Assembly (NCBI GenBank): GCA_903878415.1
Contig: CAIRHO010000038.1
Coordinates: 1 to 64,000, forward strand
DNA: 64,000 nt
Direction of reading: 5' to 3'
Source: an uncultured Actinomycetes bacterium
GTDB lineage: Bacteria > Actinomycetota > Actinomycetes > Nanopelagicales > Nanopelagicaceae
A model generated the notes under the pieces. That model made no database searches and was not told where the DNA came from. It saw only the letters and a program-made list of their open reading frames with translations. Below, piece by piece: positions 2,444 through 17,794 of the stretch. Each line of letters begins with the position of its first letter. Position 1 is the stretch's first letter. Position numbers and translations under genes: made by a program.

Positions 2444-3649
2444 TTACTTATCCGAACTATATTCCATCTCGGCTGCTAATTTTTTCGAGAGCGAAGGTGA
2501 TACTTTCCACATTGCGACTAATTCTCGATACTTTTTGGCTTCGGTTGCATCAGATTTTACACCAGTTAGCACCGCTCTAATCATTAGGTTTCGCGGCGTA
2601 TGTTCGCCTCCAATAAATTCAATTACTTCAACGCGATAACCTAACAATTTAAGAATTTGTGCTCTAAGTGCATCTGTCAATAAATCAGAGAGCCGCTCCT
2701 TTATTAAACCGTGCTTAGTTAAGAGCGACCAGGGCTCTGGGGAATCTTTAATTTGCGATTGCAGATCATGATGACAACATGGCGCAATCAATAATAGTTT
2801 TGCCTTACTTTTCACAGCCCAGGCAATTGCGTCATCAGTTGCGGTATCACATGCATGAAGCGCAATCGCAACATCAGCGCTGGTTTCAGTTGTATCTGAA
2901 ATTGTTTCAACCTTGAATTGAATAGTTTTGGAAATTCCTAACTTTTTTGCAATCTCTGAATTTTTCTCGCGAAACTCAGAGCGGTTATCTATCCCAACTA
3001 CTTGAATCGGAATGTTCTTAGAAGTTAAGAATTGATGGGCTGCGAAAGTTAAATAAGCGCTTCCAGATCCCAAGTCCACAATTTTAAGTGGGCGCTCCTG
3101 GCTCGGTTTCTCAATATGCCCCGCATCAATTGCGGAATTTAGCGTAGGCCAAAGTAATCTGAGGAACTCTTCGACTTGTTTATATTTATCCTGGCGCGAA
3201 GGTTTAACGATGCCATTACTATCTGAAATTCCTACTTCAATTAAGAACGGATCTGATGATTTTAATAACCGTTCTTTCACTCGGTCATGTGTAAGTTCTG
3301 GAGTATTAATACCAATATCCCGATGCACAATTACTTTATCTTTCTTAGTAAATTGAATCGCGATAGAACCGGCTAGGTGTTCAACTAAGATATTTGCATA
3401 ACCTTGTTGCAGTAATTCATCAATTTTTAGTTCACCTGGTAGATAATTTTTCGTAATGGTCTGTCGACCATCATTTGAAAGCATTTGATAGTGTGGAATT
3501 TCCTTGAGTAATATGGGGCGAATATCAATTCTTTCAAAGCTTGGACTCAGGTCTTTTCTCGCTCCAGAGAGCAAAACCCGAACCAACTCTTCTAGCTTTG
3601 CAATTTGAGCCGCCACTTCGGCTAGCGCACCATCACTTTCAGATGACAT
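2444..3649 (-). CDS. SAM-dependent methyltransferase, Methyltransf_32-like
   Basis: This 401-residue protein has a class I methyltransferase core in its second half. Motif I is VDLGSGSAYLTFAAHQF, followed by the acidic motif VVGIDNRSEF, and later the segment ALHACDTATDDA and APCCHHDL. The LHAC...APCCHH pair is the hallmark of the Methyltransf_32 family (PF13679), whose members are mostly uncharacterised and include relatives of METTL25 and GSTCD. The N-terminal 170 residues are a less recognisable helical region. It sits 3 bases after the GDPD-phosphatase fusion and 16 bases before the dehydrogenase, so it is almost surely cotranscribed. The substrate is unknown and no link to the flanking catabolic enzymes can be shown from the sequence. 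Confidence 0.8.
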   Translation of the reverse strand: MSSESDGALAEVAAQIAKLEELVRVLLSGARKDLSPSFERIDIRPILLKEIPHYQMLSNDGRQTITKNYLPGELKIDELLQQGYANILVEHLAGSIAIQFTKKDKVIVHRDIGINTPELTHDRVKERLLKSSDPFLIEVGISDSNGIVKPSRQDKYKQVEEFLRLLWPTLNSAIDAGHIEKPSQERPLKIVDLGSGSAYLTFAAHQFLTSKNIPIQVVGIDNRSEFREKNSEIAKKLGISKTIQFKVETISDTTETSADVAIALHACDTATDDAIAWAVKSKAKLLLIAPCCHHDLQSQIKDSPEPWSLLTKHGLIKERLSDLLTDALRAQILKLLGYRVEVIEFIGGEHTPRNLMIRAVLTGVKSDATEAKKYRELVAMWKVSPSLSKKLAAEMEYSSDK

Positions 3650-3652
3650 AGT

Positions 3653-5167
3653 TTATGAAATAACTTTCTGCCAGATTTTGTAAAGTGCATCCGCAGCCGC
3701 TGGCGTTGCAGTCATAATTCCACCAGTTTCTGGAAATAGGTTTACAGTTCCAGTCTCGTCGTACACCACGCCGCCAGCTTCATGCACAATAATTGCTGCG
3801 GCAAGGTGATCAATTGGGCTGAAATGTCCGATAACTGCACCAACACCACGATTAGCGGCTACGCCATTCAAAGTTAAGGTTCCGGATCCCATAATTCGCA
3901 TGGTGCAGAAGTTTTTCGCAAGTTCATCAAGTAGCCCAAGCATTCCGGGCCAAGGTTGATATGCAGCTAACTCTGTAGAAACTATTCGACTGCTCAGCGG
4001 ATTATCTATCCCAATTAAATTTTCAACTTTGAGTGGCTTGCCATTTAATTTTGCACCTTTGTCTTTTGCTGCTTCATATAGTTCATCGCGCCATGGATCA
4101 ATTACGATTCCAAGTAATGGCGTGCGATTAAAAGCTAGCGCAAGTGAGAATGAACTCCATGGCATGCGGTTTGCAAAATTTGTGGTGCCATCAATTGGGT
4201 CTAAATACCAAGCAGGCTGATCGGCAAGATAGGTGCCGCCCATCTCTTCGCCCACGAAATTATGGCCAGGAAAATTTGCCGAAATTACTTCTCGAACATG
4301 AGCTTCAATCATCACATCGATCTCGGTAACAATGTCTGCTGGATTTTGTTTCAATTCAATTTTTCCTGGGTCCATCGATTTTGCAACTAAAATCGCCCAT
4401 TTTCCAAGATCTCTGGCAACTACTAGAGCGCGATCTAGGTCAATATCCGCAGCGCTCTTCTCATTCTTTGATGCTAGTTCTGGTTCGCTAAGTACTCGCT
4501 TTAATAGCGCAAGCTCATTAGTAGTTACAGAATCAATTCCGATGACTTTTGCCCAACGCATTGTGGCTTCATCATCAACGGTCCAAATTGAAACTTTACA
4601 ACCAAGCGCATGAATAGCATCAACTTTGCTCTTGGTTAAGAATGAATAGTGGGAATTTATGAAAGTTGGCTTTAGCTTTGCAATATCCGCAGATGTCAAA
4701 GTTGCATTAACATTCCAAGGCATCCAGATATTAGCGCTCTCTGAAAGGGAGCGAATTATCTGCATTCCTTCTAGATTTCCGCACCAATAAATAGTTGCGC
4801 CACTCTTTGATGCAACTTCAAATGCTAATTTGGCAGGATCGCTCTCTTCCATGTCAATCATCAAAATTGATTGTGAATTTTCAAAGAGTGGCAATACATC
4901 GGAAAGCAGCGGAACTTTATTCTCGCCTGCCCCTAGTTCAGAAATTTCTGCCCATGTAACTTCCGAAACTTTTTTATCTAAACCCCAGAGCCGTTCAAAC
5001 GTTGGGTCGTGGATTACAACCACTTTGCCATCTTTAGAAATCCGCACATCGATTTCAACTACTGCAGCACCAGCATCAATCGCAGATTTTATTGCAACGA
5101 CTGTGTTTTCCCGGAAGCGACTAGAATCGCCACGATGCGCAGAAATATTTGTTGAGTTAGTGGACAT
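3653..5167 (-). CDS. Fusion protein: glycerophosphodiester phosphodiesterase + inositol monophosphatase
   Basis: Two enzymes occupy one 504-residue chain. Residues about 7-225 are a compact GDPD domain: HR at 11-12, metal-binding E38 and D40, H53-D54, a later MIDME at 104-107, and the closing VSIWTVDDE...IDSVTTNE segment. Residues about 245-504 are an inositol monophosphatase-type domain: GEE at 306-308, DPIDGTTNF at 323-331 and the third metal site SPID at 450-453, where the usual Trp before Asp is Ile. GDPDs cleave glycerophosphodiesters, and IMPases remove phosphate from inositol phosphates. Both active sites look complete and no signal peptide is seen, so it should be cytoplasmic. It follows the ABC ATPase gene by 5 bases. 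Hydrolysis of imported glycerophosphoinositol to inositol is an inference. Confidence 0.88.
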   Translation of the reverse strand: MSTNSTNISAHRGDSSRFRENTVVAIKSAIDAGAAVVEIDVRISKDGKVVVIHDPTFERLWGLDKKVSEVTWAEISELGAGENKVPLLSDVLPLFENSQSILMIDMEESDPAKLAFEVASKSGATIYWCGNLEGMQIIRSLSESANIWMPWNVNATLTSADIAKLKPTFINSHYSFLTKSKVDAIHALGCKVSIWTVDDEATMRWAKVIGIDSVTTNELALLKRVLSEPELASKNEKSAADIDLDRALVVARDLGKWAILVAKSMDPGKIELKQNPADIVTEIDVMIEAHVREVISANFPGHNFVGEEMGGTYLADQPAWYLDPIDGTTNFANRMPWSSFSLALAFNRTPLLGIVIDPWRDELYEAAKDKGAKLNGKPLKVENLIGIDNPLSSRIVSTELAAYQPWPGMLGLLDELAKNFCTMRIMGSGTLTLNGVAANRGVGAVIGHFSPIDHLAAAIIVHEAGGVVYDETGTVNLFPETGGIMTATPAAADALYKIWQKVIS

Positions 5168-5172
5168 TAAAA

Positions 5173-6189
5173 TTAAGCAGTTCTTACTAGCTTGCCATCC
5201 CGATAAATCAGCGCTTTAGTGATGTTAGCAAAGCCGGCATCGCCAGCTTTAGGAACTTCACTTGATACAAATGCGCGTAGTTCTGCATCATTACGCTTTA
5301 AGTAAACTTCATAAAAATGTCCGCGTGGCACAACTAAAGTAACGGTTGCAGCAACGCTGCCAGGTACTTGGTTTTTGCTAAAGAAAACATCTTCCGGTCG
5401 AATTCCAATGACATCACTACCAGCTGAAATCGCGCCGTTTTCATAGGATCCGGTAACACGATTGAGCGATCCAATAAAGTTCGCTACATATTCAGTTTGT
5501 GGAGCATCATAAAGTTCTTGCGGTGTACTAAATTGTTCAATCCGACCATCGTTCATAACTGCAATTCGATCTGAGATTGAAAGTGCTTCATCTTGGTCAT
5601 GGGTCACAATTACTGTAGTAATGCCAAGTCGACGCTGTAGTTCACGAATATCTTCTCTAACTTTAACGCGAAGCTTTGCGTCAAGATTCGAAAGTGGTTC
5701 ATCGAGCAAGAGAATGTCCGGTTCTTGAACTAAAGCTCGAGCGAGTGCAACACGTTGTTGTTCGCCGCCAGATATTTGAGCTGGGCGCGAATCTTTATGG
5801 TGCATTAGGTTCACCAATTCAAGGACATCGTGTACTCGTTTTTCAATCTCAGATTTCGACATTTTTCTTACCTTTAGCGGATATGCAACGTTCTTAAAAA
5901 CTGTCATGTGTGGCCAGAGCGCATAATTTTGGAAAACCATTGCACTTGGACGCTTCTCTGGTCCTATTTCAGTGACATCTTTACCGGCTAGGAAAACTTT
6001 TCCAGATTCCGGAATTAAAAATCCAGCAATCATGCGAAGTGTCGTGGTTTTGCCGCAACCTGATGGACCGAGCAGTGAAACCATCTCGCCCTTGTTAACT
6101 ACAAGGTTTAAGTCATCGATGATTACTCGACCACCTAATATTTTGCGTAGGCCGACGAGCTCGAGACCTTGTCCATTTTGATTCGCCAT
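5173..6189 (-). CDS. ABC transporter ATP-binding protein (PotA/FbpC-like)
   Basis: A complete nucleotide-binding subunit of 338 residues. It carries Walker A GPSGCGKTT (about 42-50), the signature SGGEQQRVALARAL, Walker B ILLLDEPLSNLD and the switch His in VIVTHDQDEA. A C-terminal TOBE-like region (GIRPEDVFF onwards) is typical of importers for polyamines, ferric iron, 2-aminoethylphosphonate and glycerol phosphates. It lies downstream of the binding protein and two permeases and directly upstream of the GDPD-IMPase fusion, which resembles the arrangement of ugp loci where a diesterase travels with the importer. Substrate class cannot be set from the ATPase alone. Confidence 0.93.
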   Translation of the reverse strand: MANQNGQGLELVGLRKILGGRVIIDDLNLVVNKGEMVSLLGPSGCGKTTTLRMIAGFLIPESGKVFLAGKDVTEIGPEKRPSAMVFQNYALWPHMTVFKNVAYPLKVRKMSKSEIEKRVHDVLELVNLMHHKDSRPAQISGGEQQRVALARALVQEPDILLLDEPLSNLDAKLRVKVREDIRELQRRLGITTVIVTHDQDEALSISDRIAVMNDGRIEQFSTPQELYDAPQTEYVANFIGSLNRVTGSYENGAISAGSDVIGIRPEDVFFSKNQVPGSVAATVTLVVPRGHFYEVYLKRNDAELRAFVSSEVPKAGDAGFANITKALIYRDGKLVRTA

Positions 6190-6208
6190 TGCTATCTACT
6201 CGCTTTCA

Positions 6209-7051
6209 TCATTTGATTTGGAAACCTTCAGCCAATTGGCCACCGATGATGTGCTTACGTGCTAAACCTATTAGGAGGACTGATGGGATCGTTAAAAGTA
6301 TCGAAAACACAGCAGTAACTTGAATTGGGTAAGTTTCGACAATCGCATACATCGCAGTTGGCATTGTATAAATCTGTGGCGCACCTACTAAATATGTGCC
6401 TTGTGCTTCATCGAACGAATAAATGAATGACATAACCATCGCAACTAGAATTCCAGGCATTGCCATTCGAAGCGTAATTGTGCGAAATACCCGGAACTTG
6501 CTGGCACCGGCATCTCGAGCTGCTTCTTCTAATGATTTCGGAACGGCGGCAAAGGCCGCAGCTGGGATCCAGGTCATAAAAATAATGGTCCCTAGTACTT
6601 GCACAATAATTACGCCAACCATTGTGCCCATCAAATTTAAGAAGTAATAAAGCGTTGCAATTGTTGCGAAGAGTCCAATCTTTGGAAATGCATTAGATGC
6701 GAACATCATAATTAGAAATGTTCTACGGCCCCAATAATTATAACGAGCCGATGCATAAGCGGCCGGCAAGCAGATTACTGCTGAAACGATTACTACTATT
6801 GGAGAAATAATTAGCGAATACCTTATTGCAGAAACAAGCGTTGGAACTTCAAATACTTTACGGAACCATTCCAAAGTCCATCCAGTTGGCTTGTAACTTG
6901 GATAGAGCCACTCCACCACAAAAGCGTGAAGCGCTAACCAGATCAAAGGTCCGACAATTAAAAGCATCATAAAGATAGAAAAAGCTACGAGTATTGCTTT
7001 TACACCCATTGACTTAGTGTGGAGATTAAGCGGCTGTACATCATTGGCCAT
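6209..7051 (-). CDS. ABC transporter permease (PotC/PhnV-like)
   Basis: An integral membrane permease of 280 residues with about six hydrophobic segments and the coupling-loop EAA motif (SLEEAARDAGASKFRVFRTI). The frame can be extended upstream to 7093, but the start chosen here is ATG at 7051, which shares one base with the TGA of the previous permease (TGATG) and follows a GGGAGAG ribosome site. This arrangement implies translational coupling and equal production of the two permeases. It forms the membrane channel together with the 7051-7992 product. Confidence 0.9.
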   Translation of the reverse strand: MANDVQPLNLHTKSMGVKAILVAFSIFMMLLIVGPLIWLALHAFVVEWLYPSYKPTGWTLEWFRKVFEVPTLVSAIRYSLIISPIVVIVSAVICLPAAYASARYNYWGRRTFLIMMFASNAFPKIGLFATIATLYYFLNLMGTMVGVIIVQVLGTIIFMTWIPAAAFAAVPKSLEEAARDAGASKFRVFRTITLRMAMPGILVAMVMSFIYSFDEAQGTYLVGAPQIYTMPTAMYAIVETYPIQVTAVFSILLTIPSVLLIGLARKHIIGGQLAEGFQIK

Positions 7052-7992
7052 CAGACTCTCCCACTCTCTTTCGCACTTCGGAAATTTGCCCAAATATAAG
7101 ATATGGCAATACCGGAAGCGGCTGCGAAAACTATGAATGCCATGACGACCGATTGTTGTGGTCGATTGTATGCAGTAAAGAAATTAGTAATTTCCACACC
7201 AAACATGGTTGGCTGATTTGGTCCTAAGAAGTATGGAATAGTAAAAGAACCTAACACCCCGATAGAGGTGAAGGTTGCAACGATAATTATTGGGATTAAG
7301 GCGAGCGGCAACATTACAGTTCTAATAATCGTTATTAAACTCGCGCCAGCATCTTGTGCCGCCTCAATTAAAGCATTCGGAACCGATTGAAATCCAGATG
7401 TGACCATCAATATTGCAAATGGCAGCGAAGTCCAAATGGAACCGATAATCACGGCAAGCATTGTTGAAGTTATTTGCGGAATATCAAGCCCGAATGAGTT
7501 GAAAATTGTGCGATAAAGGCCAGCACTTCCATAAAATGTGTAAAGCGCCCAAGATGAAATAACTACCGGAATAAATAGCGGTGTGAGCGAAAGTCCAGTT
7601 AATATCGAGGAAAGTTTTCCACCGCGGAGTCGTTGCAATAAGCCAACTCCAATTGAAAAAATTAATACCAATATAGTTGCGACAAATGAAACTATTAGCG
7701 TTGTTTTTAGATCTCCGGCAAAACGTGGATCCGCAATTACATCTTTATAAGCCTGTAGGGTAAATAACTTGCCATCTCGGCCGCGAACATCTTGACCAAT
7801 AATTGAAATTACTTCGTTGAGGCCACCGGTATATCCAATGGAAAGAAAAAAAGCTAAACCAATTGGTAGCCCGATAAATATGCCGAGCACCAAAATAGGT
7901 GGCAAGGCCATGAAGAAACCAAGAAGAGAGAGCTTTGAGTCTTTCGACTCAAAGCTCTCTTTAGCGACTTGGTTTGTAACCGCAGCGCTCAA
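7051..7992 (-). CDS. ABC transporter permease (PotB-like)
   Basis: A 313-residue permease with about six membrane segments and the EAA loop (LIEAAQDAGASLITIIRTV). The longest frame starts at TTG 7992 (MSAAVTNQ), 5 bases after the binding-protein stop, but no good ribosome site precedes it. An internal ATG (MALPPILVL, residue 28) would remove most of the cytoplasmic N-terminus. A strong 15-bp hairpin lies within codons about 11-22 of the longer form, so if the internal ATG were used, the hairpin would sit in the untranslated leader. Start assignment is therefore uncertain; function as importer subunit is clear. Confidence 0.88.
   Translation of the reverse strand: MSAAVTNQVAKESFESKDSKLSLLGFFMALPPILVLGIFIGLPIGLAFFLSIGYTGGLNEVISIIGQDVRGRDGKLFTLQAYKDVIADPRFAGDLKTTLIVSFVATILVLIFSIGVGLLQRLRGGKLSSILTGLSLTPLFIPVVISSWALYTFYGSAGLYRTIFNSFGLDIPQITSTMLAVIIGSIWTSLPFAILMVTSGFQSVPNALIEAAQDAGASLITIIRTVMLPLALIPIIIVATFTSIGVLGSFTIPYFLGPNQPTMFGVEITNFFTAYNRPQQSVVMAFIVFAAASGIAISYIWANFRSAKESGRV
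7927..7960 (-). repeat. Perfect 15-bp inverted repeat with GAAA tetraloop at the permease start
   Basis: Bases 7927-7941 (AGAGAGCTTTGAGTC) are the exact reverse complement of 7946-7960. In the leftward transcript the four-base loop reads GAAA, a GNRA tetraloop that stabilises RNA hairpins. It lies 40-75 bases downstream of the substrate-binding-protein stop. Such hairpins commonly protect or attenuate the mRNA after the binding-protein gene, giving more binding protein than permease. The unusual point is that it lies inside the longest permease reading frame. Confidence 0.85.
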
Positions 7993-7997
7993 TCTAT

Positions 7998-9140
7998 TTA
8001 CTTGCCAGGAACTTCAAGCGCCCATTGATTTTTGAAGTCAGTTGAGTTACTTGATAGGTAGCCAGGACGAAGTGTTGAGATATCTGTACCAACAGCAAAC
8101 TTGCTTTGGTTAGCTTCGCTCAACAGCGTTACTGGAATTACTGGATAACCGTTAAGTGTGCCACCAACGATGATGTTCTGAGCTGCTGGTGAAAGTACCC
8201 AGTTAATGAAACGTTGCGCTGCAACACCTTGGCGAGAGCCCTTTGGGACTCCTAACATTGCTGGGCCACCAGTTAAAGCTGGTCCGCTGATTTGAGCAAC
8301 TTTCCAATAACTTGGAATTGTTCCGGCTTTTAGACCGCTAAGGAACTGATCTGACCAAACTGTTGCCATATCGACTGATCCATTAGAGACCAACGAAAGA
8401 GTTGCAGCATTGCCGGATGGGTAAGTTCCATTTTTGCCATATGTGTAAGGGTTTAGAGATTTGAGTACATCAAATCCTGCCTTCCATTTAGCTTGGAGCG
8501 GCTTGTTAACTTCATTTACCAATGTCTTGATATCTGCATCAGTCATGTACTTATCGATAACGGATTGTGCGAATGCATATCCACTACCGCCGCCTGATGG
8601 CTGGTTGTATGTGAAACGACCTGGGTTTGCTTTGATCCAAACAAGAAGGTCATCCATTGTCTTTGGTGGCGTGGCAACAACTTTTGAATTGTAAGCCAAG
8701 AGAACTGTTGAAGCACGATATGGAATTCCGCCCTTAGCCAACTCCATTAATGAATCAGGCACTTTGGAAATATTTGGAATTCGAGAAGTTGAAGGAATTG
8801 TTAAAAATCCTTTTAATCCAAGTTCCTGAACAAATCCAGCTTCAATAACATCAAATCCTGCATCTTTCTTTAATTTGGCCGCAGCCATAATTTTCGCGAG
8901 AGTAAGCGCATCATTTTTTCCATGAAGATCGAAAGAAGATACGTCAACGTTGTAATTTGGGTTTGCTTTTTCAAATGCAGGAATTAATTCTGTAAGCCAC
9001 ATTTTTTCAACGTTGGTATCTCCCGATACATACAAACGAACTTGAAATACTGCAGCGTGGCTTGTGGATGCAGTGAAGCCAAGAGTGGCGACTGCTAAAC
9101 CAGCTACTGCAAGTATTGATACGAGTTTATTTTTACGCAC
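7998..9140 (-). CDS. ABC transporter substrate-binding protein, secreted
   Basis: A periplasmic/extracellular solute-binding protein of 380 residues. The N-terminus (MRKNKLVSILAVAGL) is a classic Sec signal peptide ending at SHA-A, with no lipobox Cys, so it may be soluble or held by another anchor. The body fits the SBP_bac_1/6 fold of iron, polyamine and phosphonate binders (AYNSKVVATPPKTMDDLLVW; LGVPKGSRQGVAAQRFINWVLSP). The frame extends to a TTG at 9158, but a strong GGAGGAGG ribosome site lies 8 bases before GTG 9140, which is the start chosen. It is the first gene of the seven-gene operon. Confidence 0.92.
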   Translation of the reverse strand: MRKNKLVSILAVAGLAVATLGFTASTSHAAVFQVRLYVSGDTNVEKMWLTELIPAFEKANPNYNVDVSSFDLHGKNDALTLAKIMAAAKLKKDAGFDVIEAGFVQELGLKGFLTIPSTSRIPNISKVPDSLMELAKGGIPYRASTVLLAYNSKVVATPPKTMDDLLVWIKANPGRFTYNQPSGGGSGYAFAQSVIDKYMTDADIKTLVNEVNKPLQAKWKAGFDVLKSLNPYTYGKNGTYPSGNAATLSLVSNGSVDMATVWSDQFLSGLKAGTIPSYWKVAQISGPALTGGPAMLGVPKGSRQGVAAQRFINWVLSPAAQNIIVGGTLNGYPVIPVTLLSEANQSKFAVGTDISTLRPGYLSSNSTDFKNQWALEVPGK

Positions 9141-9206
9141 TAAAAGTGCCTCCTCCAAGTAATAAGGAATAGACCGGATGTCGATTTCCTTCGAATAGGT
9201 AAGATA

Positions 9207-9212
9207 TAAACT
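9207..9212 (+). promoter_or_regulatory. Candidate -10 (TAAACT) for leaderless start at ATG 9219
   Basis: TAAACT is followed by exactly six bases and then ATG 9219, the same layout seen before many genes in this window. That ATG opens only a 20-codon frame that overlaps the start of the DUF6454-like gene. Inferred from spacing alone. Confidence 0.45.
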
Positions 9213-9218
9213 AGCAGT

Positions 9219-9281
9219 ATGTTAGGCATCTTCGAAGAGTTAGGCTCAATTCCGAATGAAATCCGCGTTAACTATCCTTGA
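9219..9281 (+). CDS. Possible leaderless 20-codon upstream ORF
   Basis: ATG at 9219 opens a 20-residue frame (MLGIFEELGSIPNEIRVNYP) ending at TGA 9279-9281. It starts at the expected position for a leaderless message and spans the ATG (9256) of the next gene in another frame, so it could control that gene by reinitiation or by blocking. No homology is recognised and the ORF could be fortuitous. Confidence 0.3.
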   Translation: MLGIFEELGSIPNEIRVNYP

Positions 9282-10107
9282 ACTTGTAGCGCGCCTAAAT
9301 CGGGGTACGAAATGGGAGCTAGCAGAGCGAATTCCTCTTGCTTTCCCAACTCATCACCCCCAAGGTTTAGCTTTTGTAGGCGATTACATTTTCCTTTCAT
9401 CGGTCGAGGTTTTAGAAAAACCACTAAATGTATTTGATCCGACGCTATCGACCCCTGGGCGCGGTATTGGTCACATGTTTGTAACCGATCACGCTGGGAA
9501 ACTACTAAAAGATATAACCATAGGTTCTGGCGATATGTATCACCCTGGCGGAATAGATTTCGATGGCACAAATGTTTGGGTGCCGGTCGGAGAATATAGA
9601 CCAAACGGTAAGAGCATGATGTTAACTATTGATGCAAAAAATTTTCAGGTTACCGAAAGGTTTCAAGTAAAGGATTCGATTGGGTGGGCGTTAAGTAACT
9701 CAGAGACCGGTTCCATATATGGTGGAAATTGGGGATCTCGCGAGTTTTATGCTTGGAGCTCTGATGGTAGAGAACTCGATCGTTGGAAAAATCCAAGTAG
9801 TTTTATTGACTATCAAGATTCTCAGTTCGCTGGTAACGGTCACGTGATTTGCGGTGGAATCGCCAACTTGCCGCAGTCAAATGGGTTAGGCGATTATGAA
9901 TTGGGCGGGATGGCCATAGTTGACTTTACTAACCGACGAATTAATTATGAAACACCAATTCAATTCTTCAGCAAGGCGGGTCATGTACTGACCCGAAATC
10001 CATTTGCACTCACAAGCGAAAACGATGATTTGTTCCTGCATGTTGCACCTGATGATGGTTTTGATCTTAATGGCACGGAGTTATTGAAGTTCAAGGCCTG
10101 TAATTAA
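9256..10107 (+). CDS. DUF6454-like beta-propeller protein of unknown function
   Basis: This 283-residue protein has repeated propeller-like blades with Gly/Trp/Asp turns (THHPQGLAFVGDYIFLSSVEV; YHPGGIDFDGTNVWVPVGEYRP; SIYGGNWGSREFYAWS; FAGNGHVICGGIANLP). The opening THHPQG and the YRP and NWG motifs match my memory of the DUF6454 family, but the assignment is not certain. No signal peptide is visible. It is divergent from the importer operon and the only rightward gene before iolC. ATG 9256 has only a weak upstream AGG; a 20-codon ORF overlaps its start. A carbohydrate- or lactone-related role fits the neighbourhood but is not shown. Confidence 0.7.
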   Translation: MKSALTILELVARLNRGTKWELAERIPLAFPTHHPQGLAFVGDYIFLSSVEVLEKPLNVFDPTLSTPGRGIGHMFVTDHAGKLLKDITIGSGDMYHPGGIDFDGTNVWVPVGEYRPNGKSMMLTIDAKNFQVTERFQVKDSIGWALSNSETGSIYGGNWGSREFYAWSSDGRELDRWKNPSSFIDYQDSQFAGNGHVICGGIANLPQSNGLGDYELGGMAIVDFTNRRINYETPIQFFSKAGHVLTRNPFALTSENDDLFLHVAPDDGFDLNGTELLKFKACN

Positions 10108-10167
10108 TTACTTTAGGAAATTTTAATTCTTTATCACTGCATAAATCGGTCTCGCACCTCTAAAAAA

Positions 10168-11046
10168 TCAAAGTATAGATTTTAGAAATTCAATACTTTC
10201 TCTAACCGCTGAAATTGGACCGGCTCCAACTGCTGGAGCTTGATCGAGCATCACATCTTGTTCTAATACTAGTTTGCCTTCGTAATTAATACCATCAAGA
10301 AAGCGAATTACTTCAGAAATTTGAGCATCGCCCTTGCCAAGCGGCTTGTACATGCCATTTTTTACCTCAGTCGAATATGTAGAAGTTCGATTTTGAATCC
10401 GTGCGGCGGCGACTGCATCGCAATCTTTTAGATGAACATGTTTAACTCGTGAACCCGCGCGTTTAGCAATATCTAAAGGTTTGCCGCCACCAACCACAAT
10501 GTGCCCAGTATCAAGACATAAGTTGATATCAGTTTCATTTAGCAAGAAATCTAAATCATTGGGAGTTTCAAACATTGTGCCAGCATGTGGATGTAACACC
10601 ATTTCCAAACCAAATTCTTTGGCAATCTCAGTGATCATCGGTAGTGACTCCGAAAAAACTGCCTTAGCTTCGGCATCCATCGGATCTCGAGAGTCGTAAT
10701 CGCCATCTTCAGCTGGCGTAGCCAATACAAAATTACCAGCGTTGAGCTCGGCTAAGACTTCTGCTTGGCGGCGTGCCCTTTCATAGGACGCTTTCAAGCG
10801 ATCTTTTTTATGCAGAACAATTGGCACGAAAGCGCCACATAAATCCAAGCCATGTCCATCTAAAACTCTTGCTAACTCTTTTGCATCTTGCGGCAGGTAA
10901 CCATCCGGGCCTAACTCAGTTGCGGTAATTCCGCATTCGCGCATTTCACTTAATACTCGGTCGGCTTCAATTTGATAACCCCAACCGTTTGCTTCGCAAA
11001 CGCCCCATGAAATTGGCGCGCCGGCTAATTGCTTTTTCAAATCCAA
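10168..11046 (-). CDS. IolE-like TIM-barrel sugar isomerase/inosose dehydratase family
   Basis: A 292-residue AP_endonuc_2-type TIM barrel (PF01261). Family features are the opening APISWGVCE, the ITATELGPDGYLP strand, metal-ligand segments MVLHPHAGTMFETP, NLCLDTGHIVVGGG and VKHVHLKD, and the closing LVLEQDV. The family includes inosose dehydratase (IolE), which removes water from scyllo-inosose, and various 3-keto sugar epimerases. It is read from TTG 11046, which follows GGAG by 9 bases and overlaps the end of the upstream sugar kinase region. Its position beside iolCBD favours inositol catabolism. A second homologue lies at 15543-16424, and which of the two is the true IolE cannot be decided here. 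Confidence 0.85.
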   Translation of the reverse strand: MDLKKQLAGAPISWGVCEANGWGYQIEADRVLSEMRECGITATELGPDGYLPQDAKELARVLDGHGLDLCGAFVPIVLHKKDRLKASYERARRQAEVLAELNAGNFVLATPAEDGDYDSRDPMDAEAKAVFSESLPMITEIAKEFGLEMVLHPHAGTMFETPNDLDFLLNETDINLCLDTGHIVVGGGKPLDIAKRAGSRVKHVHLKDCDAVAAARIQNRTSTYSTEVKNGMYKPLGKGDAQISEVIRFLDGINYEGKLVLEQDVMLDQAPAVGAGPISAVRESIEFLKSIL

Positions 11047-11817
11047 TTAAATTTGCTCCAAAGACCAGGCTTTAACGCCACCTAAAATTCCGGCGGTATT
11101 AGAAACTATCACTACGTCATCGCCTAAAACTTGCAGAACTTCAGTGCGAATACGACGTGAATTACCGCCGCCGATATAGAGGCGATCCCAATGAAAAACT
11201 TTCCGTAGATCTTCAACCATTAATCGAATTCGGCGAGACCAGAATAGATCGCCAAGGCGCCTAAGTTCAGTCTCGCCAACCCAAGTGTCATAAGTGGTAT
11301 TTCTACGTACTGGCGCCATCGACATTTCAAAGTGCGGTGCAAGTTTTCCGCCATCAAACATTGAAAAACCAAGTCCAGTTCCGAGCGTAATTACAACTTC
11401 TAAACCAGAGCCATTGATAACTCCAGCGCCATGCACTTCAGCATCGTTTAAAACGATTGCAGGTTTTTTGAAATGTTCTGCAAATGCTCGTTGGATGTCA
11501 AAGCCTTTCCATTGCTTTTCTAGCTCTGGCTCAATTCGAGTGCGTGGACCTTTTGCATTTATATAGTGAGGTGTGTGTACAACAACGCCATGTCGCAACA
11601 TGCCGGGCATTCCTACGGTTAGGCGATCAAAATTCGGTAAACCTTTTGAAATGTCATCAATAGTTTGAATCAAATGTGTGGGTGAAAGTGGATATGGAGT
11701 TGGCACAGCTACTGGCTGCGCATGCAAAGTGCCAGCGCTATCTAGTACCGAGCCTTTGATAAATAACCCGCCACAATCTATGGCGAGAGTCATCACGCTG
11801 GTTGAATGCATCTCCAT
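11047..11817 (-). CDS. ROK-family sugar kinase, polyphosphate-glucokinase-like
   Basis: An actin-fold kinase of about 256 residues. It has a phosphate-1 motif (AIDCGGLFIKGSVLD), the substrate Asp segment VLNDAEVHGAG, an LGTGLGF phosphate-2 motif and a GGGNSRR adenosine-type turn. The compact size and TPYPLSP segment resemble actinobacterial polyphosphate/ATP glucokinases. The start is uncertain: TTG 11829, ATG 11817, ATG 11811 and ATG 11793 are in frame and none has a well-spaced ribosome site. Divergent from iolC, it leads a two-gene unit with the IolE-like protein, so an inositol-derived or related keto-sugar may be the substrate (inference). Confidence 0.82.
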   Translation of the reverse strand: MEMHSTSVMTLAIDCGGLFIKGSVLDSAGTLHAQPVAVPTPYPLSPTHLIQTIDDISKGLPNFDRLTVGMPGMLRHGVVVHTPHYINAKGPRTRIEPELEKQWKGFDIQRAFAEHFKKPAIVLNDAEVHGAGVINGSGLEVVITLGTGLGFSMFDGGKLAPHFEMSMAPVRRNTTYDTWVGETELRRLGDLFWSRRIRLMVEDLRKVFHWDRLYIGGGNSRRIRTEVLQVLGDDVVIVSNTAGILGGVKAWSLEQI

Positions 11818-11891
11818 GTATATAGTCAAGCAAAATCTCGTTCAGAAAGATAATCGGAGTGCTCGGGATATCTTTGCTACGCGCATATATG

Positions 11892-11897
11892 TAGAAT
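11892..11897 (+). promoter_or_regulatory. Candidate -10 (TAGAAT) of leaderless iolC
   Basis: TAGAAT, then six bases, then the iolC ATG with no ribosome site between. This predicts transcription starting at or next to the start codon. No clear -35 is visible. Confidence 0.6.
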
Positions 11898-11903
11898 CCA
11901 CAC

Positions 11904-12845
11904 ATGTTAGACCTCCTCACCATTGGCAGAATTAGTGTTGATTTATATGGTCAGGAAGAAGGTCACGGCTTATCTGATCCGCAAACATTTCAGAAATCTG
12001 TCGGTGGCAGCCCTACAAATGTTGCGATCGGGACCGCTCGATACGGCCATAAAACAGCGGTAATTACTGGAGTAGCAAGTGATGCGCTCGGCGAATTTGC
12101 AATTGGTGAATTGAAGAAATTCAGCGTCTCAACAGAATTTGTAATTAAAACTCCTGCTGGCAAAACCCCAATTGTGGTTGCGGGAATAAAAGATCCAGAT
12201 AGCCCAGAATTTATTTTTTATCGCGATAGCAGCGCGCCAGATACTAAAATTGAAACCTCAGCATCATTAATATCAGCAGTTAAGGCTGCCAAGTATTTTT
12301 GGTTTACTGGATCTACGCTTTCGCAAGCGCCGCTTTCAAATACCGTAATTGAGCTACTCAAATCCAGAAATGGTGAAGTTATCTTTGACCTGGATTATCG
12401 ACCTTCGTTTTGGAGCTCTCCAGAGTCTGCTCATAAAGAAATTTCAGCTGCGGTTAAATATGCAACAGTTGCGATTGGAAACTTGGAAGAGTGCGCTGTT
12501 GCAACTGGCTTACCGAAAAACTCTAGCGCTGCGGAATTTGCTGCTGCTTTACTTACAATGGGACCTAAGTTAGCAATTGTTAAGGGCGGCGCTACAGGCG
12601 TATTGGTAGCTCATGGACATAGCGCCACTGCAATTCCAGGGTTACGTATAAAAACTAAATGTGGCTTAGGTGCCGGCGATGCATTTGGAGCAGGCGTGGT
12701 GCACGGTTTGTTATCTGGCTGGAGTCCAGAAGATTCAGTTTCCTTTGCAAATGGCGCTGGAGCTTATGTTGCTTCCCAATTAATGTGCAGTGATGCAATG
12801 CCCACTGAAGTTCAAGTTCGCGAATTGATGGAGCGTTCAAAGTGA
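11904..12845 (+). CDS. iolC: 5-dehydro-2-deoxygluconokinase
   Basis: A 313-residue PfkB-family kinase. The N-terminal LTIGRISVDLYGQEEG and GGSPTNVAIGTARYG are close to known IolC proteins, and the anion-hole/catalytic-base motif GLGAGDAFGAG lies at about residues 254-264. IolC phosphorylates 5-dehydro-2-deoxy-D-gluconate in myo-inositol breakdown. It begins a three-gene operon, overlapping iolB by four bases (GTGA), and appears leaderless. The following steps (IolJ aldolase, IolA) are not in the window. Confidence 0.92.
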   Translation: MLDLLTIGRISVDLYGQEEGHGLSDPQTFQKSVGGSPTNVAIGTARYGHKTAVITGVASDALGEFAIGELKKFSVSTEFVIKTPAGKTPIVVAGIKDPDSPEFIFYRDSSAPDTKIETSASLISAVKAAKYFWFTGSTLSQAPLSNTVIELLKSRNGEVIFDLDYRPSFWSSPESAHKEISAAVKYATVAIGNLEECAVATGLPKNSSAAEFAAALLTMGPKLAIVKGGATGVLVAHGHSATAIPGLRIKTKCGLGAGDAFGAGVVHGLLSGWSPEDSVSFANGAGAYVASQLMCSDAMPTEVQVRELMERSK

Positions 12846-13720
12846 GCCAACGCTTCTTCCCATTTAGCTCTGGCATTAAATCGATAACTCCAGAAATGGC
12901 TGGGTGGCAATATTCCGGATTACAAGTAATAAGCATTCCGGCTGGGAAAACCGATATTTCTCAATACTTTTCTGGAGATATTGAAGCGGCTTTGATTCCA
13001 TTAAACCTGCAAAATTTTAAAGTTTCCATTTCTGGCAAAGAATATTTATTAATTGGGCGATCCGGAGTTTTTGTTGGTGCGAGTGATTGGGTTTATGTAG
13101 CATCTAATGAAAAGGTTGAGATAAGTACAGATACCGCTGGAGAAGTTGCAATTGCAACCGCTTCTGTAAAATCAAACTTCCCAAGTCGATATGTTGCGAA
13201 AATTAGTAAAGTGGAAATTCGTGGAGCAGGCATAGCTACCCGTGAAGTTCGCCCCTTTATGCATCCAGATCTATTTCCAGATGCAGAAAAATTGATGGCA
13301 GTTGAAGTTATTACTCCAGATGGCAATGTATCTAGCTTTCCGCCACACCGACATGATGGCATCAAAGGTTGCGAAGTGGAGAATGAAGAAATTTATTATT
13401 TCAGAATCGGCAAGATTTCAAGTGCCCATGGCGAAAGCGAAGGTTTCGGACTTCATCGAACTTATTCTGCGCCGGAAGATCCTGAATTCTTTGATGACAC
13501 CGTCACAATTCATGATGGCGATATTTACTTAGTTCCCCGTGGTTACCACGGACCTTGCGCTGCGATGCCGGGTTATCCGATGTACTACTTAAATGTTCTC
13601 GCAGGTCCGAGCCGAAAGCGCACTATGGATTTTTGCGACGATCCCAACCATGCTTGGCTTAGAGATAGTTGGAAGAACCAAATTCCCGATCCCCGAGCTC
13701 CCTGGCAGGTGAAGCAATGA
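12842..13720 (+). CDS. iolB: 5-deoxy-glucuronate isomerase
   Basis: A 292-residue bicupin of the KduI/IolB family. The metal-binding cupin segment FPPHRHDG and later GFGLHRTYS with YLVPRGYHGPCAAMPGYPMYYLN match IolB, which converts 5-deoxy-glucuronate to 5-dehydro-2-deoxygluconate. It starts at GTG 12842, overlapping the iolC stop. The next gene, iolD, starts within its stop codon (ATGA), so the three are translationally coupled. Confidence 0.92.
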   Translation: MSQRFFPFSSGIKSITPEMAGWQYSGLQVISIPAGKTDISQYFSGDIEAALIPLNLQNFKVSISGKEYLLIGRSGVFVGASDWVYVASNEKVEISTDTAGEVAIATASVKSNFPSRYVAKISKVEIRGAGIATREVRPFMHPDLFPDAEKLMAVEVITPDGNVSSFPPHRHDGIKGCEVENEEIYYFRIGKISSAHGESEGFGLHRTYSAPEDPEFFDDTVTIHDGDIYLVPRGYHGPCAAMPGYPMYYLNVLAGPSRKRTMDFCDDPNHAWLRDSWKNQIPDPRAPWQVKQ

Positions 13721-15546
13721 CTTTGATGACGACATCGCAAGCCATAGTTCGCTGGTTGACGGCGCAGAAAATAATTATTGATGGTGAAGTTAAACCTTAC
13801 TTTGCTGGAACATTTGCAATTTTTGGCCATGGCAATGCGCTCAGCCTTGGTGATGCGCTCTTTGATTCACAAAATGAGATGAAAACTTTCCGTGGCCAAA
13901 GTGAAGAAGGAATGGGTTTAGCTGCGGTTGCTTATGCCAAGGCAATGCGCCGCCAACAGTGCATGGTGGTAACAACTTCAATCGGACCAGGTGCGTTAAA
14001 TGTCGTTACTGCAGCCGGAACTGCGTTGGCAAATCGATTACCGATGTTAATTTTGGTTGGCGATACATTTCAGAGCAGAACACCGGATCCAGTTCTGCAA
14101 CAAGTCGAACATTTTGGTGAACCATCAACAACGGTTAACGATGCGTTCCGTCCAGTAGTTAGATTCTGGGATCGGATTACTAACCCTTCTCAAATTTTAA
14201 GTGCGTTACCGCAAGCGTTAATGACGATGTTAGATCCAGCTAGTTGCGGTCCAACTTTTTTTGCGTTGCCACAAGATGTGCAAGCAACAGCATTTGATTA
14301 TCCGGCAGAATTCTTTAACGAAACTACTCATGAAGTCCCAAGACCTCGCCCTGATTTAAATGAATTGAATAAGTGCGTTGCTCTGATAAATAACGCCAAG
14401 CGCCCAGTATTAGTTGCGGGTGGTGGCGTTCATTACTCACTTGCCGAAAAAGAACTTGCAGCTTTTGCCAAAGAACAACAGATTCCTGTAGTTGAAACTA
14501 TGGCGGGAAAATCTTCGCTCCCGTGGAGCAATCCCCTACTTGTTGGCCCACTAGGTGTTACTGGCTCAGATCCAGTTAATGAATTGGTAAGTGAATCCGA
14601 TTTAATTATTGCAATCGGTACTCGGTTGCAAGATTTCACTACTGGTTCTTGGACCTTATTTGGAGATAAAGATATCGTCGCTATAAATGCCGCCCGCTTT
14701 GATGCAACTAAACGACGTGCAAGCGCCGTAGTTGGTGACGCACTAGCCACAATTTCAGAGTTAAGAACCCAAGTTAAGCCAACTAATAGAGCTGATTGGA
14801 TCGCTCGAGCTAAAACGTTAAAAAATAGCAGCGTGGTGTTACGTACTAGCCGTGAGAAATTGAAATCTGAATTACCAACATATGCCCAAGTTGTAATTGC
14901 GGCTAATGAAATTGCTCGCCCTGAAGATTATGTTTTAACCGCAGCCGGAGGTTTGCCTGGCGAGTTAAATAACAATTGGCTCTCCAAATCAGTTGCTTCA
15001 TTTGATTGCGAATATGGTTTTTCATGTATGGGATATGAAATTAGCGGTGCATTTGGCGCAGCTATTGCGCAGAAAGATATGAAGAAAACCGGCCGGGTGA
15101 TTGCAATGACCGGCGATGGTTCTTACATGATGCTTAACTCAGATATTTACAGCGCTGTACTCCATGGATATCCATTGACTTTAATACTCTGTGATAACGG
15201 TGGCTTTGCTGTGATTTCTAGATTACAGACCGGTAATGGCGCAGCTTCATTTAGAACCATGATTACTGAAAATGAGTCCGCCGCCAGGGTCGATTTTGTA
15301 GCGCATGCAAAATCTATGGGAGCTAATTCCCATCGAGTTACTTCAGTTTCAGAACTTACTAAGAAATTACTAGATACTGCTAACTCCAAAGAAGTTGAAG
15401 TAATTGTTATTAATACGGCACCAACTACTTGGACTGAAGGTGGCGCATTCTGGGAAGTTGGTATTCCTGAGGTTTCTGATAAGAAATCAATTCAAGAAGC
15501 TCGTGCTAAATTAATTGATGGCAAGAAAGCCCAGCGGAAGTTTTAG
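13717..15546 (+). CDS. iolD: 3D-(3,5/4)-trihydroxycyclohexane-1,2-dione hydrolase (ThDP-dependent)
   Basis: A 609-residue ThDP enzyme that opens the ring of diketo-inositol. The N-terminal domain has FRGQSEEGMGLAAVAYAKA with the catalytic Glu. The central NAD/FAD-like domain follows (VLVAGGGVHYS; DLIIAIGTRLQDFT). The C-terminal cofactor domain has MTGDGSYMM ... CDNGGFAVI, the GDG-X-NN-type Mg-ThDP motif. The frame extends to 13669, but ATG 13717 overlapping the iolB TGA (ATGA) is preferred. Its last four bases overlap the convergent IolE-like gene. Confidence 0.93.
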   Translation: MTLMTTSQAIVRWLTAQKIIIDGEVKPYFAGTFAIFGHGNALSLGDALFDSQNEMKTFRGQSEEGMGLAAVAYAKAMRRQQCMVVTTSIGPGALNVVTAAGTALANRLPMLILVGDTFQSRTPDPVLQQVEHFGEPSTTVNDAFRPVVRFWDRITNPSQILSALPQALMTMLDPASCGPTFFALPQDVQATAFDYPAEFFNETTHEVPRPRPDLNELNKCVALINNAKRPVLVAGGGVHYSLAEKELAAFAKEQQIPVVETMAGKSSLPWSNPLLVGPLGVTGSDPVNELVSESDLIIAIGTRLQDFTTGSWTLFGDKDIVAINAARFDATKRRASAVVGDALATISELRTQVKPTNRADWIARAKTLKNSSVVLRTSREKLKSELPTYAQVVIAANEIARPEDYVLTAAGGLPGELNNNWLSKSVASFDCEYGFSCMGYEISGAFGAAIAQKDMKKTGRVIAMTGDGSYMMLNSDIYSAVLHGYPLTLILCDNGGFAVISRLQTGNGAASFRTMITENESAARVDFVAHAKSMGANSHRVTSVSELTKKLLDTANSKEVEVIVINTAPTTWTEGGAFWEVGIPEVSDKKSIQEARAKLIDGKKAQRKF

Positions 15547-16424
15547 TTAGTTAGCGCAGCTTGAATATTAGCCATCGACACCGCAGAAGCTTCTTGCGAA
15601 GGCTCCCAGGCAGTGTCTTGTTCGCTCATTAACCATCCAGAATAATTTAATTTATCGAGCGCAATAAATAACTCTTTAACTTTCAATAGTCCGGTGCCAG
15701 CTGGAACAAAGAGTTTTAACTCATCAACCGCAAAACCCATGGTTTCAACTTCTTTTGAGAGCATCTTCGCGAGTACTTCCCCGCTGACATCCTTCACATG
15801 TATGTGAGTTATTCGATGGCCATATTCAGATACTGCTACAACTGGATCACCGCCGCCAACAATCCAATGACCCACATCTAAACAGAGCCCTATTTTTTCA
15901 CTAAGCATTGCCATTAATTTCTTAGTTTCGCGCGGAGTTTCGATATAGGTAGCACCATGTGGATGAAATGAAGATTTCATCCCGTGGCTTGCAGCAACCG
16001 CCGCATGCCGCTCTACGAATTCAGCCATAACTTTAAAACCCGTTTCGGAAAGTCCGGGACCGTTATCCGCATTTCCAGCGCTCCGGTCGCGATCTTCGGA
16101 ACCATCCGCCGCAAACACAATCATTTCAACGCCAGCACCCGCAGCCTGCTTAATTATTAATTCAGCTTCAGCTTCTGCTCCTGGCAACAGACCATCCTCA
16201 TTACATTTAATTGGCAAATATTGTTCGGCAGGCGCAACGTTATATTTTTTCATCAACTCGCGAAATTCCGAGGATTCGGCTTGTTCACCTGAAACTTGAA
16301 TTCCTGCAAAACCATACTGAGCGATTTCTAAAAGAAATTTCTCTTTTTGGTTCGGATCATATTTCCAATTCAAGGGAACTATGCCAACTTTTGCATTGTG
16401 CAATCTAATTCTCGGATTTGTCAT
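15543..16424 (-). CDS. Second IolE-like TIM-barrel isomerase/dehydratase
   Basis: A 293-residue sugar isomerase/epimerase barrel. It has the metal segments KSSFHPHGATYIETP, IGLCLDVGHWIVGGG and ITHIHVKDVSGE, and closes with WLMSEQDTAWEP. The HPHG...TGHW/DVGHW...HVKD pattern fits inosose dehydratase and inosose isomerase relatives (IolE/IolI/IolH). It is leftward, convergent with iolD with a 4-base overlap, and shares one base with the upstream glycoside hydrolase stop (TAATG). With the homologue at 10168-11046 it brackets the iolCBD genes. Assignment to IolE or IolI is open. Confidence 0.83.
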   Translation of the reverse strand: MTNPRIRLHNAKVGIVPLNWKYDPNQKEKFLLEIAQYGFAGIQVSGEQAESSEFRELMKKYNVAPAEQYLPIKCNEDGLLPGAEAEAELIIKQAAGAGVEMIVFAADGSEDRDRSAGNADNGPGLSETGFKVMAEFVERHAAVAASHGMKSSFHPHGATYIETPRETKKLMAMLSEKIGLCLDVGHWIVGGGDPVVAVSEYGHRITHIHVKDVSGEVLAKMLSKEVETMGFAVDELKLFVPAGTGLLKVKELFIALDKLNYSGWLMSEQDTAWEPSQEASAVSMANIQAALTN

Positions 16425-17707
16425 TAGAGAACCATCATAACCAAATCAAGGAGAATAGTTGACCAACTAAAATCTGGTGCGCCGCGGCCAGAGGCGCTCT
16501 GTGGGTTGTAATATTCACGAACACCACTTTTACGCATCGCAACGATGCTTTGATTCGCAATCACTCGAGCAAGATCTACTCTTCCATGTCGCAATAAGCC
16601 ACGCGCTAAATACCAATTGCTATTAATCCAAGTTGGTCCGCGCCACACTAGATTTCCGCCAACCGTTTCTGGACGATAAGTCGGATGGTTCATTGCAGTG
16701 CTAGGTATTGGAAATTCCGCCCAATACTCCTCTGGATTGAGCAGATGAGCCATCAATGCTTCGACTTTTTTAGGCGCTAAATCTGCCAACAAGAGCGGCA
16801 TTAGCGAGGTAAATGTATTAACTCGAAGTTTCTCATTCTCTTTGCCGTTTACATCGTAATAGAGGCCATCTGTTTCATCCCAACAAAGTTCTTCTAAGGA
16901 ATCTCGAGCTTTCGCTGCACGAGCTATATAAATAGCGGCCCCAGCCTCATCTTTAATTTGCAGGCAGAGCTCTGCAAGAACTCTTAAATTTTCAATATAA
17001 ATTACATTTACCATTACATCTGCAACAACAAAATGATTTAACGCAATCATCTTCTTTGGATCTCGATTAAATTTATCGTAGGGGTCGCAAATCGAGTGCC
17101 AACCGCGATCCCAACTTTCGTGCTCCTCATCTTGAATGTTCATTAGCTCATCCCACTTAGGAGAGTGATCGAGGCCAGTCTCATCGGGTTGGACCACGCG
17201 AATTAACCCGTCACCAAATGGATTTCTAACATTATGCAACCATTCATAGAACCTACGAACACTCGGCAATACTTCTTTGATGAATTCGTTGCCGCGGCCA
17301 CGTTGTGCGACTGCTTGCACAGCTTCAGCTAACAAGGGTGGTTGCATCTCATCTGATAAGTATTTTGATCGGAATGCAATCGCGTAAGTTGAAACCATCT
17401 CTTCAAAACTATCGCGTTGCCAGAATGTGACGTGCGAAACAAAGCCATCTTCGTGTTGATTCTTTAATAGACTTTTTATCTCAGCTTCGGCTTTTGCTAA
17501 ATCAATATGGCTCAGCGCAATTGCATGAAAACAAGAATCCCAGAACCATTGAAATGGGTAAGTTACTGAAGAAGGACATGTGAAATCAAAATCATGACCA
17601 CACCAAGTTGCGTGGCCGCGCTGGCGATTTTTTATATGGATATTTGTCACTACCGTTTTTAACCATTGCAAATCTTCCGGAGTAGGAGCGGTACTTTTTT
17701 CTATCAT
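16424..17707 (-). CDS. MGH1-like / GH63-type glycoside hydrolase
   Basis: A 427-residue (alpha/alpha)6-barrel glycosidase. Recognisable segments are FQWFWDSCFHAIALSHID, PDETGLDHSPKWDEL and VWRGPTWINSNWYLARGL, as in mannosylglycerate hydrolase MGH1 and related GH63 enzymes; D of WDSCF and the D/E region near the TGLD segment are expected to be catalytic. No signal peptide is seen, so it should act on an imported or internal glycoside such as glucosylglycerate, mannosylglycerate or a glycosylated polyol. It is translationally coupled to the IolE-like gene. ATG 17707 may be leaderless (AATAAT, seven bases). Confidence 0.78.
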   Translation of the reverse strand: MIEKSTAPTPEDLQWLKTVVTNIHIKNRQRGHATWCGHDFDFTCPSSVTYPFQWFWDSCFHAIALSHIDLAKAEAEIKSLLKNQHEDGFVSHVTFWQRDSFEEMVSTYAIAFRSKYLSDEMQPPLLAEAVQAVAQRGRGNEFIKEVLPSVRRFYEWLHNVRNPFGDGLIRVVQPDETGLDHSPKWDELMNIQDEEHESWDRGWHSICDPYDKFNRDPKKMIALNHFVVADVMVNVIYIENLRVLAELCLQIKDEAGAAIYIARAAKARDSLEELCWDETDGLYYDVNGKENEKLRVNTFTSLMPLLLADLAPKKVEALMAHLLNPEEYWAEFPIPSTAMNHPTYRPETVGGNLVWRGPTWINSNWYLARGLLRHGRVDLARVIANQSIVAMRKSGVREYYNPQSASGRGAPDFSWSTILLDLVMMVL

Positions 17708-17794
17708 GCTTCGAATTATTATGCAGATACTCGCTACTTTTTACCAAATTCGCTAAGATTTCATGGAAATAAGTCACATAATTTGGAGGAAAGC

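Follow-up and report, generated by a model that had tools for sequence, protein, structure and literature searches.

Among known systems, the acc operon of the Ti plasmid is the closest in logic and gene order to the cassette described here. It consists of ABC importer genes followed by the genes for a GDPD-family diesterase, AccF, and an inositol monophosphatase (IMPase) family phosphatase, AccG, which act on an imported phosphodiester (PMC4526662). The importer is of the peptide type, and accF and accG, which lie downstream of it, overlap by eight bases. While a two-enzyme phosphodiester catabolic module of this kind is already known, the form in which both enzymes are joined in one chain is new. 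Text searches of open-licence papers found no literature directly on a GDPD-IMPase fusion, and an earlier automatic annotation of it somewhere is quite possible.

The window, i.e. the whole stretch of DNA analysed, comprises 64,000 nucleotides of a contig from an uncultured member of the Nanopelagicaceae (acI), which are among the most abundant lake bacteria. The fusion gene, its domains and its neighbours are as follows:

2444 to 3649, minus strand: methyltransferase gene (Methyltransf_32), which follows the fusion gene after 3 bp
3653 to 5167, minus strand: GDPD-IMPase fusion gene, a single open reading frame of 504 codons read from 5167 to 3653, with homologues
3662 to 4387, minus strand: inositol-monophosphatase-fold domain, residues 261-502 (Pfam PF00459, E 5.3e-44; also matched by Foldseek)
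4439 to 4510, minus strand: short linker, residues 220-243, of varying length among aligned homologues (model pLDDT about 89-96)
4511 to 5137, minus strand: GDPD domain, residues 11-219 (Pfam PF03009, E 1.3e-33; Foldseek match to the GDPD 2pz0, TMt 0.83)
5173 to 6189, minus strand: ABC ATPase, PotA/PhnT2-like, ending 5 bp before the fusion gene and kept in 26 of 27 loci
6209 to 7093, minus strand: ABC permease 2, the listed TTG start of which is probably too far upstream
7051 to 7992, minus strand: ABC permease 1
7998 to 9158, minus strand: solute-binding protein of the PotD/FbpA/PhnS fold group (model pTM 0.80; best Foldseek matches 3pu5 and 4r6y)
9256 to 10107, plus strand: DUF6454 protein, found repeatedly next to the cassette in Nanopelagicaceae and Cryobacterium
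10168 to 11046, minus strand: IolE-like sugar isomerase/dehydratase (TIGR04379, 149 bits, below the cut-off of 290)
11047 to 11829, minus strand: ROK family sugar kinase-like protein
11904 to 12845, plus strand: iolC, 5-dehydro-2-deoxygluconokinase (TIGR04382, 304.5 bits, above the cut-off of 300)
12842 to 13720, plus strand: iolB, 5-deoxy-glucuronate isomerase (TIGR04378, 218.4 bits, above the cut-off of 205)
13669 to 15546, plus strand: iolD, trihydroxycyclohexane-dione hydrolase (TIGR04377, 749.1 bits, above the cut-off of 715), the true start probably being slightly downstream
15543 to 16424, minus strand: second IolE-like protein (TIGR04379, 124.5 bits, below the cut-off of 290)
16424 to 17707, minus strand: MGH1/GH63-like glycoside hydrolase (PF22422, E 7.7e-80)
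17666 to 18922, plus strand: Gfo/Idh/MocA dehydrogenase with a weak resemblance to IolG

Both halves of the fusion protein pass their Pfam gathering thresholds, the GDPD half with 117.6 bits against PF03009 (threshold 23.6) and the IMPase half with 151.2 bits against PF00459 (threshold 27), with about 40 residues between the matched stretches. The opposite, plus strand over 3653-5167 contains many stops. The preliminary description of the window, which had placed the two domains in one protein at this position, is confirmed by Pfam, with the gene on the minus strand. In an AlphaFold2 model of the fusion, built with 27 homologues, the join between the domains is well predicted (mean pLDDT 89.9, pTM 0.89). 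Foldseek finds SuhB and human IMPase as best matches for the IMPase half (TMt about 0.8) and T. tengcongensis GDPD (2pz0) as a match for the GDPD half; among the 50 Foldseek matches listed, each covers one half and no solved structure spans both. The sequence shows no obvious signal peptide, which makes a cytosolic location probable.

Of 296 Nanopelagicaceae genomes, 28 carry the fusion, and these are spread over 6 of 17 genera; it also occurs in 8 of 150 Microbacteriaceae genomes and in one genome of another actinobacterial family. GTDB yields 23 loci with the fusion (a few of them partial), which come, among others, from three Cryobacterium species and from the complete chromosome of Candidatus Planktophila lacus. 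Fusions of PF03009 with PF00459 beyond Actinomycetota were sought in plasmid records only, where the best cases are separate genes.

In the cassette, the genes for the binding protein, the two permeases, the ATPase and the fusion follow each other in this order and in one direction, 5 to 19 bases apart except for the permease genes, which overlap slightly. This order is kept in 26 of the 27 fusion loci for which the upstream sequence exceeds 4.3 kb, although some of these loci are close relatives and the independent cases are fewer; the one exception (L123) has no importer beside the fusion. The methyltransferase gene is probably a passenger, as it is not conserved beside the fusion in other loci. 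The DUF6454 protein may belong to the pathway of the cassette, next to which it occurs in two separate families. DUF6454 genes adjoin the cassette on either side (window 9256-10107, L025, L026, L040, L042, L043 and L045). The sequence of the binding protein gives only weak maltose-binding matches for its ligand, and by predicted fold it resembles ferric, polyamine and aminoethylphosphonate binders (16-18% identity), a result that names no ligand.

Compared to AccF and AccG, which are the products of two genes, the fusion is one chain with about 30% identity to them, its importer is of the Pot/PhnT2 type and not of the peptide type, and no DeoR-family regulator (AccR-like, as in acc) is present among the genes from 2444 to 12845. 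The substrate of the fusion must also differ from agrocinopine, because the latter is a crown-gall product. Pairs of separate GDPD and IMPase genes exist in further organisms. In Rhizobium rhizoryzae, the order is ATPase-permease-permease-binding protein-GDPD-IMPase, as read from translations, and in Agrobacterium vaccinii it is binding protein-permease-permease-UgpC-GDPD-IMPase, while in Marinovum a regulator gene separates the two within one operon. In four genomes of another actinobacterial family (L109, L110, L111 and L115), adjacent GDPD and IMPase genes lie beside ABC permeases and a binding protein. The IMPases of these four cassettes are 36-40% identical to the fused domain and branch near the fused clade, but the genes are separate and the importer is of a different family. 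As three kinds of importer are found beside GDPD and IMPase pairs, the pairing has come about, or been retained, more than once. The unfused pairs mark GDPD-then-IMPase as a recurrent nutrient module, with agrocinopine use as only one case. The AvrBs2/xanthosan system is only an analogy, because XanP is a 2H-phosphoesterase and not a GDPD (PMC12807533); the fusion gives only a weak match to the AvrBs2 model.

By analogy with AccF plus AccG, the fusion probably acts in the cytosol and combines two activities, by which a single imported phosphodiester is broken down in two steps. The ABC importer encoded directly upstream, with its binding protein, two permeases and ATPase, would bring in a small polyol or sugar phosphodiester, which the GDPD domain would hydrolyse to an alcohol and a phosphomonoester. 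The IMPase-fold domain would then strip the phosphate from the monoester, giving two neutral carbon compounds and phosphate, in the way that AccF and AccG are thought to act in agrocinopine catabolism, with the enzymes here in one chain. We infer that both domains act on one substrate and in this order; hydrolysis of a diester and then of a monoester had also been suggested in the preliminary description and fits both the fixed importer cassette and the unfused pairs elsewhere. The locus without an importer, the noncanonical GDPD residues and the ten fusion carriers without iolD, the latter two discussed below, count against this two-step reading. It is a general one, and the glycerophosphoinositol, glycerol-3-phosphate and sugar diester explanations considered below are specific versions of it, with overlapping probabilities. 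A conserved importer together with a one-chain diesterase-phosphatase would imply that a particular dissolved phosphodiester supplies some Nanopelagicaceae with both carbon and phosphate. Both the fusion enzyme and the binding protein should be soluble.

The GDPD motif (HR...EN...ExD...HD) is present in the window protein as H11 R12, E20 N21, E38, D40 and H53 D54, and its HR, E, D and HD are conserved in all 34 fusions aligned. In the IMPase half, which has DPIDGTTNF from D323 and I452-D453, the metal ligands E307 (of G306 E307 E308), D323, D326, T328 and D453 are invariant in the fusions compared. All key residues listed in the preliminary description are at the positions it gave, yet the third metal ligand of the GDPD half is Asp105 instead of Glu, with Asp invariant across the 34 fusions, and the Lys two residues further on is replaced by Glu107 (Glu, Asp, Gly, Ala or Thr across the 34 fusions, Lys in none). 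In the GDPD of P. furiosus, the third metal ligand is Glu111 and Lys113 takes part in substrate binding (PMC4926365). The fused half thus shares its fold and the HR, E-x-D and HD residues with the bacterial cytosolic GDPDs (UgpQ, T. maritima 1o1z and T. tengcongensis 2pz0) but differs from them at both of these positions, so that the usual reaction with common glycerophosphodiesters cannot be taken for granted.

In human IMPase, the specificity for inositol depends on side-chain contacts from two residues only, namely Glu213, which touches the inositol ring, and Asp93. IMPases specific for inositol-1-phosphate have Glu or Gln at this position, and in M. tuberculosis SuhB the mutation of the Trp of the WD motif to Ala cripples the enzyme (PMC2080633). 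In the window fusion, the equivalent of Glu213 is Ile446 and that of the WD-motif Trp is Ile452, and both positions are occupied by Ile or Val in 34 of 34 fusions. The preliminary description had noted the Ile in front of the third-motif Asp and suspected an altered specificity; this remark is correct and applies to the family as a whole. Both IMPase paralogues of the window genome keep the Glu and the Trp. While the fused IMPase half has the fold and metal ligands of the inositol-1-monophosphatases SuhB and IMPA1, it lacks the inositol-recognition Glu and the WD-motif Trp, and because of these replacements an ordinary inositol-1-phosphatase function is very improbable, although it could conceivably act on an inositol phosphate bound in a different manner. 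Both halves stay below the curated cut-offs, the IMPase half with 105.7 bits against the equivalog NF008027 (cut-off 332) and the GDPD half with 69 bits against NF006989 (cut-off 264), and a canonical specificity of the fusion enzyme seems unlikely from its residues. In unfused IMPase partners, the Glu213 position is Ser in acc and Leu in A. vaccinii and the actinobacterial cassettes, the latter of which keep the GDPD Lys and the IMPase Trp; the paired IMPases of R. rhizoryzae and Marinovum keep the Glu. In three loci of family f19 (L106, L107 and L108), unfused IMPases that are 43% identical to the fused domain also have Ile or Val for the WD-motif Trp; their genes, at about 7.5-8.3, 8.0-8.8 and 7.4-8.2 kb, respectively, have no adjoining GDPD gene.

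It is conceivable, if doubtful, that the cassette serves neither a standard glycerophosphodiester nor an agrocinopine but some other dissolved phosphodiester, and that the fusion is a purpose-built two-site enzyme with both pockets changed. If this were true, abundant freshwater actinobacteria would keep a dedicated importer for a nutrient that is new to aquatic microbiology.

The genes next to the cassette have to be considered as well. In the window's genus, iolC, iolB and iolD of myo-inositol catabolism adjoin it, and in the window these three pass the curated NCBIfam cut-offs, but the cassette itself is no standard iol component. No IolG above the cut-off exists in the window genome (best 89 bits against 355); an iolA-type MMSDH (708 bits) and an inositol-phosphate synthase are encoded elsewhere in it. 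In related loci, the IolE-like gene immediately precedes the transporter genes. The cassette adjoins IolE-like, IolB and IolD genes in the window's genus and in L033-L036, and lies away from iol genes in most carrier loci. In two of these loci (L033 and L035), iolC is missing from the iol cluster next to the cassette, while iolB, iolD and both IolE-like genes are present, which raises the question of the kinase used. Within the Nanopelagicaceae, iolD is present in 18 of 28 fusion carriers against 56 of 268 other genomes (Fisher p 4e-6, uncorrected for relatedness), a co-occurrence carried mainly by two genera. All seven carriers of genus g4 have iolD. On the other hand, iolD is absent in 10 of the 28 carriers, five of the ten being more than 90% complete, and the association of the fusion with iolC outside the window's genus is at chance (p 0.46). 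These two observations rule out a strict dependence on inositol catabolism. Inositol is therefore a good guess for the window's genus but cannot be the whole story; there, a glycerophosphoinositol-type compound is the likeliest substrate because the cassette adjoins iolC, iolB and iolD.

A sugar phosphodiester unrelated to inositol, as in the agrocinopines, would agree with the distance between cassette and iol genes in most loci, with the carriers that lack iolD and with the paired IMPases of acc, A. vaccinii and the unfused actinobacterial cassettes, which are also without the inositol Glu. The adjoining iol genes would then have to serve another purpose, which is difficult to combine with the position of the cassette beside iolB and iolD in the window's genus and L033-L036 and with the presence of iolD in every g4 carrier, making this explanation somewhat unlikely.

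If glycerophosphoinositol or another glycerophosphodiester were cut in the usual GDPD direction, which yields glycerol-3-phosphate and an alcohol (PMC4926365), the IMPase-fold domain could dephosphorylate sn-glycerol-3-phosphate. The missing inositol-contacting Glu would not matter for such a small substrate, and M. tuberculosis SuhB weakly accepts glycerol-2-phosphate and other polyol phosphates (PMC2080633). Glycerol-3-phosphate is directly usable, however, and its destruction would be odd unless phosphate is wanted; this explanation is unlikely.

The preliminary description had proposed instead that inositol-1-phosphate, produced together with glycerol from glycerophosphoinositol, passes directly to the IMPase site and is converted to inositol. 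The neighbouring iolC, iolB and iolD genes, the co-occurrence with iolD and the predicted arrangement of two domains joined by a short linker (pTM 0.89) would all be compatible with such a hand-over, but the replacement of both the Glu213 equivalent and the WD-motif Trp in every fusion, with both residues kept by the paralogues of the same genome, and the ten carriers without iolD make it quite improbable. The intermediate of the two-step digestion may be a sugar or polyol phosphate or glycerol-3-phosphate, with inositol-1-phosphate the least likely on residue grounds.

A fusion does not necessarily imply consecutive steps, and the domains could have been joined for stability or co-expression only, with unrelated substrates. 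This is highly unlikely, as the GDPD and IMPase families are neighbours in importer operons of three ABC transporter types, which indicates a shared pathway. An assembly error or chimeric reading frame, which the preliminary description had named as a possible refutation and which a draft genome of 71 contigs might suggest, is refuted by the intact fusion in dozens of independent assemblies, including complete chromosomes such as that of Candidatus Planktophila lacus, and has practically no probability left.

That the fusion is genuine follows from its spread over many genomes, from purifying selection and from the monophyly of each fused half. Compared to its two nearest homologues, the fusion has a dN/dS of about 0.05 (GDPD 0.07-0.08, IMPase 0.03), so that it is under strong purifying selection with both halves constrained and a pseudogene is ruled out. 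In trees of the single domains, which contain long branches and in which the placement of the outgroup is unsure, the support for a single clade is 100/98 for the fused IMPase domains and 97/93 for the fused GDPD domains. A single fusion event is thus the simplest history.

Several individual records deviate from the common form. At L030:10020-10150 (genome G001), the start of the GDPD part is out of frame and the HR and ExD residues are lost while the remainder is intact, owing either to a sequencing mistake in this assembly or to decay of the gene copy. L044:1-5306 contains a fusion gene that is truncated at about residue 85. It follows argG at a short distance, and the importer genes are missing upstream of it, which looks like the outcome of a deletion or misassembly. 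At L015:1006-2991 (genome G024), the fusion frame extends by about 150 residues into a membrane segment that resembles part of another protein, probably through a lost stop or a frameshift. The L028 contig, titled Bifidobacterium breve, is probably mislabelled; its fusion and neighbouring genes group with Candidatus Planktophila lacus in trees. Further along the window, two genes for TerC-like membrane proteins (24778-25671 and 28569-29462) are separated by about 3 kb, in which there are a LacI-family gene and one for an aminotransferase-like protein, all judged by their translations only.
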